Assembly (NCBI GenBank): GCA_018222825.1
Contig: JAAEZO010000014.1
Location: 1-33,036, forward strand
Source: Gammaproteobacteria bacterium
GTDB taxonomy: Bacteria; Pseudomonadota; Gammaproteobacteria; Enterobacterales; Aeromonadaceae
Direction of reading: 5' to 3'
DNA length: 33,036 nt
Shown here in pieces: positions 19,681 to 29,791 of this stretch (its first letter is position 1; each line of letters opens with the position of its first letter). The notes beneath the pieces are model-generated. The model ran no database searches, was not told the DNA's origin, and saw only the letters and a program-made list of their open reading frames with translations. Made by a program: the position numbers and the translations under genes.

Positions 19681-19715
19681 ATTATATTGGCCTCGCGCTA
19701 TTGGTTTGATTTATT

Positions 19716-19765
19716 ACACTAGCAACATGACACTGCATGTCAAGCCGTGCATTGATCCAAATCAA
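19716..19765 (-). promoter_or_regulatory. Perfect FNR box and promoter upstream of the ydcH-like gene
   Basis: TTGATCCAAATCAA (19752-19765) matches the FNR consensus TTGAT-N4-ATCAA at all ten positions. On the minus strand TTGACA (19738-19743), 16 bp and TAGTGT (19716-19721) follow. The box centre would be near -49, not the usual -41.5, so the controlled gene and mode are uncertain. Confidence 0.6.
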
Positions 19766-19991: not shown

Positions 19992-21044
19992 GGCCTTGTT
20001 GATCAAATCAAAGCCGAGACAACCTGTCCCTAAAGGGCTTTGCGCCCTTAACTGACCGGCTGACGAACAGGCATACCAAGACCTATTACTTTGTTCATGA
20101 CCTTAACACCGGCCAGGATTTCACCGACCTGGCCGTTGTAGTTACGCAAGCTCAACTTGGGATTCACCAATTGTTTGTATCGGGACATCGCCGTTTCCGC
20201 CAGTGACCGCTGATGGTAGCCAGACGTGGTTTTCCAGTCGGCTAGGTGACCTGATTTCAGCGCAGCAACGGCCTCGTTCCTCGGATGCCCTTCATCCCAA
20301 TAGCCGACATTCTTTCGGGGTGGAATGGTCGCTTTGCTGCCTTTCCGGAGCAGTAACTGATGGCACTCCTTGGTATCGTAAGCCCCATCGCCCGAGACCT
20401 GATGCAACCGGCGCCGAAGCGGGTTGAGCAGCGTCGGCAGTACCTCGTTATCCGCCACGTTTTCCAGGCTGACTTCAGCGGCAATCACTTCGTGGGTACG
20501 CGCATCAACCGCAAGGTGTAACTTACGCCAGACCCGGCGCTTACCCTTGCCATGCTTGCGCTGCTTCCATTCGCCGTCACCGAACACCTTCAGCCCGGTG
20601 GCATCGATAACCAGATGAGTGACCGCGCCTTTACTCGGCAAGCGGTACTTCACGTCCACAGTCTTGGCGCGTTTGCTGATACTGCTGTATCCCGGCGAGG
20701 TCAGCGGCACGTCCATCAGCTGAAAAATGGAGTTGATAAACCCTTCCAATGCCCGCAACGGCAAGCCGAAGAAGGCTTTGAGCATCAGCGCCGTTTCAAT
20801 GGCACTATCGCTGTATTGGAAACCGCGACCCCGGCGGCCATGGTGCTGATGGCAATGCCACTGTTCGATGGCCTGTTCATCGACCCATAAGGTAAGCGAA
20901 CCGCGATTAATCAAGGCTCGATTGTACTGCCGCCAGTTACTGATGTTGTGTCGTGCCTTGCCCATCGTGCTGCTCCCGAGTCCATTCGTCAGGAGATCGG
21001 ATCACGGGAAAAGCAGATAGTTCCCTGATTTAGGAAACAACGCC
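19992..21044 (-). mobile_element. IS5-family insertion sequence, IS903 group
   Basis: The element is about 1053 bp. The end after the transposase starts GGCCTTGTTGATCAAATC (19992-20009). The other end, on the minus strand, starts GGCGTTGTTTCCTAAATC (21027-21044). The two 18-bp ends share 13 bases and resemble the IS903 terminal repeat GGCTTTGTTGAATAAATC. No 9-bp target duplication is visible at the flanks, which suggests a rearrangement after insertion. Confidence 0.85.
20048..20965 (-). CDS. IS5-family (IS903 group) transposase
   Basis: A 305-residue DDE transposase of normal length for the group. The catalytic triad is intact: Asp121 in LVIDATGLKVFG, Asp193 in SGDGAYDTKE, and Glu257 in RSLAETAMSRYK (the Y-R-K/E-type signature). 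The N-terminus ISNWRQYNRALINRGSLT matches the family pattern. GGGAG lies 7 nt before the ATG. No frameshift or stop is seen, so the element may still be active despite the missing target duplication. Confidence 0.95.
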   Translation of the reverse strand: MGKARHNISNWRQYNRALINRGSLTLWVDEQAIEQWHCHQHHGRRGRGFQYSDSAIETALMLKAFFGLPLRALEGFINSIFQLMDVPLTSPGYSSISKRAKTVDVKYRLPSKGAVTHLVIDATGLKVFGDGEWKQRKHGKGKRRVWRKLHLAVDARTHEVIAAEVSLENVADNEVLPTLLNPLRRRLHQVSGDGAYDTKECHQLLLRKGSKATIPPRKNVGYWDEGHPRNEAVAALKSGHLADWKTTSGYHQRSLAETAMSRYKQLVNPKLSLRNYNGQVGEILAGVKVMNKVIGLGMPVRQPVS

Positions 21045-25358: not shown

Positions 25359-25585
25359 GGCTTCTCCTTGGTGTTGAATTAAACAATATAAGCAGAAAAA
25401 ACGTACATTTGGTACTGCTCCATTACTATGGCCCCGGCCGGAAAATATCAATAGGCAGCACCTCGTCTGGTTGAAAAAATGTGCTGTTAAAACGGCTTTT
25501 GCTTGTCTTTTGCTTCGTGATACTGAAAATAAAACCGTTGCTGACAATTCTGTCATGACGATTGCTTGCTGGAATCTCTCCAAAT

Positions 25586-27289
25586 ATGCGTATTGGAATA
25601 ATGGTCGTTCGAGTGTGGGTGCTGTTGCTGGCAAGTCTCGCTTCCTCCACCTCTTATGCCGAGGTGGGCGGTAGCCTGCAACTCAATGAAGCCGTTCATC
25701 AGTTGGCCGATCAGCAACGCTGGTATCCGCTGGATGCCTCTCTGGCGCGCGCCCCGCTCGAGGAGCTGCAACAACGGCTGAGCGTTGCAGCACCCGTCGA
25801 GAGTCTTCTCGGTCGGGCCGGCACCTTTGTTACCCGCGTACCGATCAGCAATACTCGGCAGCAAACTTGGTTTGTGGTGCCCGGCAGCAATTTTGTCGAT
25901 ATCGGGCTGGCCTACTGGCAGCCCGCTCAAGGGCCGCCGCGTATGCTGGCAGAATTTTCCCAGCTGAACGACGGTGCTACCCCCCGGTTGATGCACAACC
26001 AGGTGCTGCCGCTGCCGCTTGAAGAGCAGGAGTCGGGCCAGCTGTGGATAGTGGTGCAGGCGCAGCACTTTCCCACCCCGGTTCCGCTCGTCTTTTATTC
26101 CCAGCAGGCGTTTTACCAGCACCAGTTTCGCTCTAACATGACAACTGTCGGCGCCATTGCCATCATGCTGACCCTGACGGTGCTGGCTTTAGCCATTTAT
26201 GTGCGTACCCGCCAGTCACTGGCGCTGACCTACGCCGGCTATGTGGGCTTGCATGCGCTGGGGTGGGCGGCGGCGGCCGGCGCCATTAACGGTCTTGCCG
26301 CGCACACCGGGCTGAATGTGACCTATGCCGGCATGCATCTGTTTCCGTTTGCAATTGCCTGCGCCAGCCTCTTTGCCTGTGGCCTGTTCAATTGCACCGA
26401 GCAGCGCCCCGGACTGGCCCGGGTGTTGAGGTGGCTGGCCATTCTGGTGACCCTGCTGGGCATGGTGATGCTGTGGCTGCCCTTTCAGATCACCTTTTAT
26501 CTGTCTCATGTTATTGCGCTGGTGTGGGTGCCGCTGAGCCTCTGGATTGGCATGACCATGCTGTCGAGCGAAGACTTCAGGGCCAAGTACTACCTGATAG
26601 GCAATCTGTTCTACAGCGCCTCGCTGGTGTACTACGTGGTTTCCCATTCCAGTCTGGTTTCCGGTCTGGTCTATCCGGAGCTGGCGGTGATGATGGCTCT
26701 GGCCATCGACTGCCTGTGTATCCTGTTTTCGCTGTCGGAATGGCTGAAAATCAAGCAGCACGAGTTTAACCGAATCTTCTACGAATCCCGCATAGACCCA
26801 CTGACCCAGGTAGGAAACCGGCTGCTGCTGCAGGAGCGTCTCACCGGTCTGTCCGGCTGCTACCTCATCATGTTTATCGACTTTGACGGCATGAAGGCGA
26901 TTAACGATTCAATGGGCCATGGCGCCGGCGATCGCTTTCTGTCCGAGGCATCCCGATTGATGCGCAAGCGAGTCGATCATACCGGCGAAGTATTCAGAAC
27001 CGGTGGCGATGAATTTGTGTGGCTGGTTCAGGGCATGACAAAAGACCGGCTGCCCGAGGCAAAACGGCGGCTTGAAGGTCTGATTGCAGAGATAGAAACC
27101 GCGCTGCACGTCCACTGGCCGATGTCCGGCATCAGTTTCGGGCTGGTCAGCAGCGAAGATGGCGCTAATGCCTCGGAATCTCTGGCCATGGCCGACCGCA
27201 GAATGTACCAGCACAAGGCCGCCAAACAGGGCCGCCGAGAACGAGCCATCAACATCACCCCGCAGGCTCGGCACAGCGCCGTGAAATAA
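25586..27289 (+). CDS. Diguanylate cyclase with 7TMR-DISM sensor module
   Basis: A 567-residue membrane protein that should make c-di-GMP. A signal-like N-terminus (to about residue 25) leads to a periplasmic 7TMR-DISM extracellular domain (about 30-180), then seven membrane helices (about 190-395), and a cytosolic GGDEF domain from about residue 405. The active-site GGDEF (473-477) is intact, as are DPLTQVGNR and FIDFDGMKAIND upstream. No EAL domain is present, and no RxxD inhibitory site is evident five residues before GGDEF. The start is uncertain: ATG 25586 and ATG 25601 (with TTGGA 4-8 nt before it) are both possible. The periplasmic ligand is unknown. Confidence 0.9.
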   Translation: MRIGIMVVRVWVLLLASLASSTSYAEVGGSLQLNEAVHQLADQQRWYPLDASLARAPLEELQQRLSVAAPVESLLGRAGTFVTRVPISNTRQQTWFVVPGSNFVDIGLAYWQPAQGPPRMLAEFSQLNDGATPRLMHNQVLPLPLEEQESGQLWIVVQAQHFPTPVPLVFYSQQAFYQHQFRSNMTTVGAIAIMLTLTVLALAIYVRTRQSLALTYAGYVGLHALGWAAAAGAINGLAAHTGLNVTYAGMHLFPFAIACASLFACGLFNCTEQRPGLARVLRWLAILVTLLGMVMLWLPFQITFYLSHVIALVWVPLSLWIGMTMLSSEDFRAKYYLIGNLFYSASLVYYVVSHSSLVSGLVYPELAVMMALAIDCLCILFSLSEWLKIKQHEFNRIFYESRIDPLTQVGNRLLLQERLTGLSGCYLIMFIDFDGMKAINDSMGHGAGDRFLSEASRLMRKRVDHTGEVFRTGGDEFVWLVQGMTKDRLPEAKRRLEGLIAEIETALHVHWPMSGISFGLVSSEDGANASESLAMADRRMYQHKAAKQGRRERAINITPQARHSAVK

Positions 27290-27312: not shown

Positions 27313-27594
27313 TCAACTGCCGACGATGTGGTTGCGCACCAGCCCGCGTTTAACGCTCTTGCACAGCTTGCCGAAGCGACGAATTTCATCGAACTGCGGC
27401 GTTATGCCGCGCTTGATGCTGTATTCCCAGTAGCTCAGCTCGGTATCCAGCAGCTCCATCAGCTTTTTAGGGCAGCCGATACAGTTGTTATCGGTACCAC
27501 AGACAAAGGTGTCGGCTTCATACAGGGGAAACTCGACCTTGGCCTGCTCGATAATCTGTTGCATCGCGGTGATGCGATCCGGCTTTTTCGACAT
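27313..27594 (-). CDS. 93-residue protein with Cys-x5-Cys-x2-Cys motif, FNR-controlled
   Basis: A small cytosolic protein. A Cys cluster lies at C32, C38 and C41 (FVCGTDNNCIGCPKKL), with a fourth Cys78 near the basic C-terminus, which suggests an iron-sulfur or zinc site. The remainder is helical (MELLDTELSYWEYSIKRG). I do not recognise a named family, although it looks conserved-hypothetical in style. ATG 27594 is favoured by GGAG 8 nt upstream. The upstream region has a near-perfect FNR box at -41.5 with TATAAT, so anaerobic induction is expected. It is convergent with the diguanylate cyclase, with no clear terminator between. Confidence 0.75.
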   Translation of the reverse strand: MSKKPDRITAMQQIIEQAKVEFPLYEADTFVCGTDNNCIGCPKKLMELLDTELSYWEYSIKRGITPQFDEIRRFGKLCKSVKRGLVRNHIVGS

Positions 27595-27624
27595 GACAAC
27601 CACTCCGGCATGAATACGCCACCG

Positions 27625-27666
27625 ATTATATCGATGCACCCGGCGGTAAAAGCTGATGCGGATCAA
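27625..27666 (-). promoter_or_regulatory. Class II FNR-type promoter of the Cys-motif protein gene
   Basis: On the minus strand TTGATCCGCATCAG (27653-27666) matches FNR at 9 of 10 positions. A spacer of exactly 22 bp leads to a perfect TATAAT (27625-27630). This places the box centre at -41.5, the standard class II activator position. No good -35 is present, as expected for an activated promoter. Confidence 0.75.
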
Positions 27667-27735
27667 GCCGCAATACAACGCCCTGCCCTAGGCTGAACGA
27701 GTGGACCCTACCGCAGCTCAGGAGGCAAACGTCAG

Positions 27736-27963
27736 ATGACCGACCGCATGCTAATCCGACTGCTTAAAATCATGATGGTGATTGGCATCATGCTGATTTT
27801 ACTAGGCGTCTACCTGCATAACAGTGCCTTCGCCGCCGCGCTGGGGGTAAAAGGCATTCTGCTCAGCGCCGCCTGTGTAGCGATAGGCATGATACTGTCG
27901 CTGCCCACCAAGATGTACCTCACCTTTGTGCTGATGAAGCGCGAAAACAACAAGCCCCCGTAG
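27736..27963 (+). CDS. 75-residue inner-membrane protein of unknown function
   Basis: Two membrane helices lie at about residues 10-34 and 38-57, followed by a short segment and a basic C-terminal tail (MKRENNKPP). AGGAGG lies 10 nt before the ATG. It diverges from the FNR-controlled Cys-motif gene and is followed by the 98-bp repeat array. No family is recognised, and nothing in it suggests a reaction. Confidence 0.65.
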   Translation: MTDRMLIRLLKIMMVIGIMLILLGVYLHNSAFAAALGVKGILLSAACVAIGMILSLPTKMYLTFVLMKRENNKPP

Positions 27964-27967
27964 AGGC

Positions 27968-28293
27968 CGAGTCATTGGCCCGCCGGATCTTGGTGCAACG
28001 CCATGGGTCGAATGACAACGCGGTAGGGTCCAATTCATTGGACCGTCAGACCTGGGTGCAACGCTGCTGGTCGAATAAATTCGACCTTACGACGGCGCCC
28101 ATGGGTCGAACGACAACGCGGTAGGGTCCAATTCATTGGACCATCGGGCCCCGGTGCAACGCTGCTGGTCCCATAAATTCGCCCCTACAACGGCGGCCAT
28201 GGGTCGAACGACAACGCGGTAGGGTCCAATTCATTGGACCGTCAGATCTTGGTGCAACGCCATTGGTCGAATAAATTCGCCCCTACAACGGTA
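27968..28293. repeat. Tandem array of 98-bp double-palindrome repeats
   Basis: Three units (28000-28097, 28098-28195, 28196-28293) have an exact 98-bp period, preceded by a decayed partial unit (27968-27999). Each unit carries GGTCCAATTCATTGGACC and a second palindrome of the type GGTCGAATAAATTCGACC, joined by GGTGCAACG and CGACAACGCGGTAGG links. The second palindrome is degraded in units 2 and 3. The arms belong to the same family as the repeats at 8153 and 8300. There are no unique spacers, so this is not a CRISPR array. Confidence 0.88.
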
Positions 28294-28370: not shown

Positions 28371-29663
28371 TTAGTGCAGTTTCAGTCGTGGCCGCAGAAA
28401 ACGGTTGATGCGCCCGACCAGCATCATCAATCCGGTGCGGGTGTAACCGTGCAGCGCCACCTGGTGCATGCGGTACAACGACACATACACGGTGCGCGCG
28501 ATGCGCCCTTCTACCATCATGGAGCCGCGCATCAGGTTGCCCATCAAGGATCCGACGGTGGAGTAACGACTCAGGCTAACCAGAGAGCCATGATCCTTGT
28601 AGACGTAAGGCTTGAGCGGCTTGTTGTCGAGCCGGGCCAGTATGTTGTCGTAGGCCAGGCTGGCCATCTGGTGGGCGGACTGGGCGCGCGGCGGCACCGG
28701 TTTGCCGTTTTCCTGCAGGCAATGGGCACAATCGCCAATCACGAAGATCTGATCGTCCCGGCTGGTCTGCAGGGTCGGCTTGACCGTCAGCTGATTGATG
28801 CGGTTGGTTTCCAGCCCGGCAATGTCTTTCATGAAGTCCGGTGCCTTGATGCCCGCCGCCCATACCATCAGGGTGGCCGGGATCAGCTCGCCATCCTTGG
28901 TTTTCAGGCCATCCGGGGTAGCTTCCACCACCATGGTGTTGGTGCGCACGTCCACCCCCAGCTCACGCAGCTCCTTGTGGGCCATGCCGGAAATGCGCTC
29001 CGGCAGGGCTGGCAAAATGCGGGGGCCCGCTTCCACCAGGGTCAGGCGCAGGCACTCGGGGCTGAGCTTCTTGAAGCCATAGGCGCTGAGGTGCTCTACC
29101 GCATTGTACAGCTCGGCAGACAGTTCCACCCCGGTGGCGCCGGCGCCGACGATGGCAATGCTCACCTTGTCGTCGGTCGACTCGCTTTCACCGTATTGCA
29201 GGAAGCGGTTCATCAGTTCGTCATGAAAACGCTCGGCCTGCTGCGGGCTGTCCAGAAAGATACAGTGGTCGCGCACGCCCTGGGTGCCAAAGTCGTTGGA
29301 CACGGAGCCGATGGCCAGCACCAGAATGTCATACGGCAGGGTGCGTTCGCTCAGCATCGGCTTGCCGTTATCGTCCAGCATCGGCGCCAGGGTAATGGTG
29401 TGGGCGTCCCGGTCGATGTGGGTCAGTGAACCCATCTGAAAGGAAAAACCGTGGTTATGGGCGTGAGAACGATAGCTCAGACCATCGATGCCGGGGTCCA
29501 TGGCGCCGGTCGCCACTTCATGCAGCAGTGGTTTCCACAGGTGGGTACGGTTACGGTCTACCAGTGTCACTTCCGCCTTGCCCTTGCGGCCCAGCTTGCG
29601 GCCCAGTTTGGTCGCCAGCTCAAGCCCGCCGGCACCGCCGCCGACCACGATAATCTTTGTCAT
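28371..29663 (-). CDS. ndh: NADH:quinone oxidoreductase type II (Ndh)
   Basis: A 430-residue FAD enzyme on the inner face of the membrane. It passes electrons from NADH to quinone without pumping protons. The FAD fold begins [20 protein letters not shown] (2-21). The NADH-binding motif [19 protein letters not shown] is central, and FVIGDCAH binds FAD near the C-terminal third. A basic, amphipathic C-terminus ([13 protein letters not shown]) should hold it to the membrane. ATG 29663 is chosen because AGGGG stands 6 nt upstream and homologues begin at this motif. The neighbouring nagZ and hinT genes follow the E. coli order. Confidence 0.95.
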
Positions 29664-29694
29664 GTTTGACCCCTGATAATGTAATAAAAACCTG

Positions 29695-29791
29695 CGGCTA
29701 TGGCGGCGTTGTGTTGCCGCCATAGCCGAAGATTCTGGCAACGGCCTTCACGCGGAAGGCCATATTTTAAAACCCGGCGGCGAAAGTACAA
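29695..29791 (-). promoter_or_regulatory. ndh promoter and leader hairpins
   Basis: On the minus strand TTGTAC (29786-29791), 16 bp and TAAAAT (29764-29769) form a promoter. The leader then holds a 7-bp hairpin (GGCCTTC/GAAGGCC) and a perfect 13-bp hairpin (29695-29707 with 29716-29728), followed by AGGTTTTTATT. The latter looks like a terminator or attenuator before the ndh ATG. It may stop read-through from nagZ. Confidence 0.55.

Follow-up and report, generated by a model that had tools for sequence, protein, structure and literature searches.

The window, by which we mean the whole stretch of 33,036 nucleotides analysed, contains two small divergent genes on either side of an FNR-type box (Table 1). 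The minus-strand gene encodes a 93-aa protein with a three-cysteine core (hereafter the Cys gene), and the plus-strand gene encodes a 75-aa small membrane protein (hereafter the membrane gene). A sequence-only reading of this DNA had assigned the box to the 93-aa gene, which stands, but it missed that the same box also faces the divergent membrane gene.

Table 1. Positions of the promoter elements and genes in the window
Feature	Position	Strand	Details
FNR-type box TTGATCCGCATCAG	27666..27653	-	Reads CTGATGCGGATCAA on the plus strand; proposed to be common to both promoters
-10 TATAAT, Cys-gene promoter	27630..27625	-	22 bp from box; predicted start near 27618
93-aa three-Cys-core protein gene	27594..27313	-	Cys at 32, 38, 41 and 78
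Codon of C32	27501-27499	-	
Codon of C38	27483-27481	-	
Codon of C41	27474-27472	-	
Codon of C78	27363-27361	-	
-10-like TAGGCT, membrane-gene promoter	27689..27694	+	22 bp from box; predicted start near 27701
75-aa small membrane protein gene	27736..27963	+	Two hydrophobic stretches (hydropathy); divergent from the Cys gene
GGDEF gene	25562-27289	+	Adjoins the Cys gene; convergent

The box matches the FNR consensus TTGAT-N4-ATCAA at 9 of 10 positions, and on the minus strand it is followed by TATAAT after exactly 22 bp, ahead of the 93-aa ORF. The center of the box falls at -41.5 from the predicted start if +1 is placed 7 nt beyond the -10 element. On the other side, TAGGCT represents a weak -10 element. 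TATAAT lies 20-23 bp from the box at a single place in the window, a combination that none of the 100 dinucleotide shuffles reproduced. Out of 100 shuffles, 8 contained the box pattern by itself (TTGATNNNNATCAG), so that spacing and conservation carry the weight of the argument. As a control from the same genome, 39 distinct TTGATNNNNATCAR sites were listed, and the 23 of them with loci were looked at. A TA...T hexamer at 21-23 bp was present on one strand of four other sites, and on both strands of the window site only.

Other elements were observed in the window. A perfect FNR consensus box, TTGATCCAAATCAA, is located at 19752-19765, by eye upstream of a minus-strand frame starting near 19681; no TA...T hexamer was found at 20-24 bp from it on either strand. 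A transposase-like reading frame was recognized by eye on the minus strand at 20048-20965. Three 98-bp units (88% matches) are arrayed in tandem at positions 28001-28291, between the membrane gene and the next long minus-strand ORF (28371-29741).

The three-cysteine protein family and its genomic neighbors

The 93-aa ORF is evidently a real coding gene, because relatives are encoded at 71 loci with best-segment identities of 50-96%. These loci belong to Vibrio, Photobacterium, Grimontia/Enterovibrio, Aeromonas, Oceanisphaera/Oceanimonas, Shewanella, Psychromonas, and Colwellia relatives, and the closest named relative is from an uncultured Oceanisphaera (96%). Within the order, 114 of 394 genomes gave a match to the protein, and so did 14 of 369 in the class sample (own genome included). 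Phages yielded no match at E ≤ 0.01, and the plasmids with a match were five records of 1.7-4.9 Mb.

Residue conservation was counted over 144 distinct sequences, including that of the window and two fragments. C32 and C41 were present in all 144 sequences, C38 in 142, and C78 in 115; the last position was otherwise occupied by Ser, Ala, or Gly (27 sequences) or lay beyond the end of the sequence (2). K44 and W56 were also present in all 144. The spacing of the core was C-x5-C-x2-C in 92 sequences, C-x3-C-x2-C in 48, and other in 4. To judge from these counts, the family is marked by three Cys, not four, plus K44 and W56, because C32, C38, and C41 are near-invariant and C78 is found in only 115 of 144. 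The sequence-only reading had rightly counted four Cys in the product, three of them clustered; the clustered three are strongly conserved, and the fourth is dispensable.

The same reading had called the protein unrecognized, and the searches agree, giving no Pfam, NCBIfam, or PDB match. A Pfam search with 33 members of the family returned nothing usable (best 0.0059, to DUF5981, in 4 of 33), nor did NCBIfam (best 0.082) or a PDB sequence search (best 0.4). The predicted model consists of three helices (residues 7-21, 42-61, and 68-87) without strands, with a mean pLDDT of 88. C41 is positioned just before helix 2, and the lowest pLDDT (69) was assigned to residues 31-40, which contain the Cys loop. 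Foldseek gave a lowest E of 1.5, and VIA-align 2, which covers listed families only, gave a best Z of 7.5, in a range that its notes call common. The 75-aa membrane protein likewise had only Pfam and NCBIfam matches below cut-off (best E-values, 0.003-0.006). Literature searches by topic found no paper on either gene family.

Two known groups resemble the Cys protein in part. The small Cys proteins of DUF1289 (PF06945) also have a conserved Trp after a CxGC stretch, but they differ in lacking any family match to the Cys protein: an hhalign profile comparison gave a probability of 0.6%, and DUF1289 was absent from the Pfam matches of the 33 members at E ≤ 10, a search in which HMMER filters drop most weak matches. 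Radical SAM enzymes share the C-x3-C-x2-C cluster motif with the 48 homologues mentioned above, but the Cys protein differs from them in its length of 93 aa and its three predicted helices without strands. The window copy does not fit that superfamily: it has C-x5-C-x2-C instead of C-x3-C-x2-C, and a SAM-binding barrel domain is not indicated, with no Radical_SAM among the Pfam matches of the 33 members and no strands in the model.

The genomic neighbors of the Cys gene were compared across loci. The sequence-only reading had linked the protein to c-di-GMP through the adjoining GGDEF gene; this link was not sustained, as a homologue of that neighbor recurs in just 1 (L005) of the 71 relatives' loci. 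No neighbor cluster was common to most of the 71 loci. Two distant families, f8 and f14, have genes of nitrate/nitrite respiration beside the Cys gene in 5 of their 6 loci. At L326, a NarX/Q-like kinase (408 bits, below the cut-off) and NarL (above the cut-off) precede the Cys gene, and a NarK-like/hemerythrin fusion (NarK part below the cut-off) follows it. The Cys gene comes after genes for siroheme decarboxylase, NirJ, and a cytochrome d1 protein at L327, and after those for a radical SAM protein and a cytochrome d1 protein at L330. At L328, it is flanked by NarK and a kinase/PP2C on one side and HPP on the other, with MoeA nearby, and at L329 the order is NarH, hemerythrin (opposite strand), the Cys gene, and UbiU. 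No nitrate/nitrite neighbor was recognized at any of the 7 loci of genus f6g10 or of the 13 class-level loci, the latter including several on short contigs; for both groups, the long reading frames were assessed by eye on their first residues.

The neighbors in families f8 and f14 suggest that the joint function of the two products may be to support nitrate/nitrite respiration. The Cys protein may be an accessory factor of anaerobic respiration, serving nitrate/nitrite respiration in some lineages. The Cys core probably binds a metal, most likely as an Fe-S cluster and next most likely as zinc. It is quite conceivable, if on balance doubtful, that the promoter works as described below while the core is a zinc site or a redox thiol/disulfide instead of carrying an Fe-S cluster; this alternative bears on the protein alone and does not conflict with our reading of the promoter. 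The variable spacing of the first two Cys and the replacement of the fourth in 27 of 144 sequences speak for zinc or a thiol, but an oxygen-labile cluster is the better fit to FNR-type control and to neighbors from anaerobic respiration, with neither consideration being decisive.

Distribution of the FNR-type site ahead of the two genes

Conservation of the site was assessed by a composite test (a box matching 8 or more of the 10 positions, followed by TA...T after 21-23 bp) that was designed after the window was seen, whose controls were first-order Markov resamplings, not exact shuffles, and whose counts include related species that are not independent. The Cys gene is present in 8 of 23 genomes of the genus, the copy in G001 having an internal stop. 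All eight homologues are preceded by a box (8 or 9 of 10) that is followed after 21 or 22 bp by TATAAT or TATGCT, against 0.008 expected; in G001, G003, G008, and G018, the hexamer is TATGCT, 21 bp downstream of the box. In an ungapped alignment of the eight promoters, the box was the most conserved of 90 14-bp windows, with 86% pairwise identity overall and 95% in the half-sites, compared with 33% identity upstream of it and 42% in the spacer. The class II FNR-type geometry described in the sequence-only reading (9/10 box, 22 bp, and TATAAT) is present in the window in every part, and class II FNR-type geometry is conserved in 8 of 8 genus members with the gene.

Outside the genus, the composite site was found ahead of 3 of 67 Cys-gene homologues in a first set (0.69 expected) and 19 of 73 in a second set from order and class searches (about 1.2 expected as the sum of per-group values), and the two sets may have species in common. 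Nine of the 19 came from one genus (9 of 11, with 8/10 boxes and similar promoters) and six from a second one (6 of 20). Control of the Cys gene by an FNR-type site thus appears to be lineage-specific. Looking for the box among homologues, the check suggested by the sequence-only reading, gave a divided answer: the box is kept throughout the genus but is missing ahead of most homologues outside it.

A different element was noticed in the first outside-genus set. The spaced dyad TAC-N9-GTA occurs in 11 of 67 Cys-gene upstream regions (1.7 expected; maximum of 6 in 200 resamplings), for example at L072, L066, L067, L032, and L058, several of the species being close relatives. In several promoters it lies, by eye, approximately 22-24 bp before the -10 element, which is the position of the FNR box in the window. 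The NarL/NarP-type spacing, TAC-N10-GTA, was found ahead of only 1 of the 67 homologues.

The membrane gene is present in 17 of 23 genomes of the genus. One box is common to both genes in four of them (G000, G016, G020, and G013), and in these four, where the membrane gene is the neighbor of the Cys gene, TAGGCT or TAGCCT is located exactly 22 bp away. The other four genomes with the Cys gene, in which the membrane gene is not its neighbor, have no TA...T hexamer at 20-24 bp on that side. The membrane gene lies 0.8-0.9 kb from the Cys gene in G003 and G018, with a separate box for each. It was not found in G001 and G008, and there too a box precedes the Cys gene.

Across the order, 73 of 295 genomes had a match to the membrane protein, some of them weak. 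The composite site was identified in 32 of 70 membrane-gene upstream regions, compared with 0.85 expected, leaving 38 without it. Of these 32, 12 are among the 16 genus regions and 20 among the 54 from elsewhere, where they are spread across four other families; the 54 were drawn from 67 genomes, and six of them belong to weak homologues (32-36% identity). One further genus region (L122) was left out, as its contig ends within the gene. In two further genus regions, a 9/10 box is followed after 22 bp by CAGGCT. Boxes of 9/10 or 10/10 that lack this spacing occur in five regions from one other genus. FNR-type sites are more widespread ahead of the membrane gene than ahead of the Cys gene.

This distribution, which extends over five families at class II distance, could mean that the site is the membrane gene's, with the Cys gene merely adjoining and its -10 match incidental; the perfect half-site (ATCAA) is also the one closer to the membrane gene. 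We consider this rather improbable, since in G001, G003, G008, and G018, which lack the shared arrangement, the Cys gene itself retains a box and a -10 hexamer, and since FNR-like sites at the same distance precede it in the two other genera mentioned above.

A different protein could also use the box. Crp/Fnr-family regulators have related half-sites, so that CRP or an NO-sensing relative might act here instead of FNR, and the genome contains a second match to the FNR model, which is weak (52 bits) and has two stops in the matched frame. The half-sites TTGAT and ATCAG/ATCAA, however, are FNR sequence rather than CRP, and the genome encodes an fnr orthologue scoring 460 bits against a curated cut-off of 228. 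This orthologue contains the CAIHCQDCSISQLC stretch and the helix GLTVETVSRLL, which in E. coli FNR correspond to the ligands of the cluster and to the recognition helix. Use of the box by another family member is thus, in our estimate, slightly less probable still. A coincidental pairing of box and -10 element, for which the shuffles containing the box pattern by itself could be cited, is highly improbable given the absence of the combined pattern from all 100 shuffles and the retention of the site in 8 of 8 genus homologues despite diverged flanks.

Proposed divergent control and comparison with known systems

FNR binding and anaerobic induction would explain the arrangement at this locus. 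When oxygen is absent, FNR is predicted to dimerize and bind the shared site, which lies midway between the two divergent promoters with -10-like hexamers 22 bp to each side. Bound FNR would recruit RNA polymerase at either -10 element, resulting in class II activation of both genes: the minus strand would yield the 93-aa protein with its C-x(3 or 5)-C-x2-C core, and the plus strand the 75-aa protein with two hydrophobic stretches. Because the inner ends of the two -10 elements are 58 bp apart, the two polymerases may exclude each other.

We regard it as reasonably probable that one FNR site near -41.5 serves both divergent promoters for anaerobic class II activation, with the Cys protein as an accessory factor of anaerobic respiration. 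The best reading of the Cys protein is that of a small metal protein, probably Fe-S, which would be made without oxygen and in some lineages would be linked to nitrate/nitrite respiration. A bolder proposal is that the three-Cys proteins form a new Fe-S family acting as an O2/NO-labile accessory factor or sensor of nitrate/nitrite respiration, co-induced with a membrane partner by a bidirectional class II FNR dimer; we consider this unlikely as a whole.

These findings mark two conserved families, neither of which has a curated model, as likely to belong to the anaerobic response. As the Cys gene is located within narL and heme d1 loci of distant relatives, its nitrate/nitrite role can be checked. 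The class II distance to two divergent promoters also raises the question of whether a single FNR dimer is able to recruit polymerase in both directions.

The locus resembles FNR class II promoters of the E. coli type in its consensus box, in the center of the box at about -41.5 from the predicted start, and in the presence of fnr in the genome. It differs from them in that one site here is proposed to serve two divergent promoters and in that both products are uncharacterized. The regulatory principle is therefore known, and what is new is the two gene families and the two-sided geometry.
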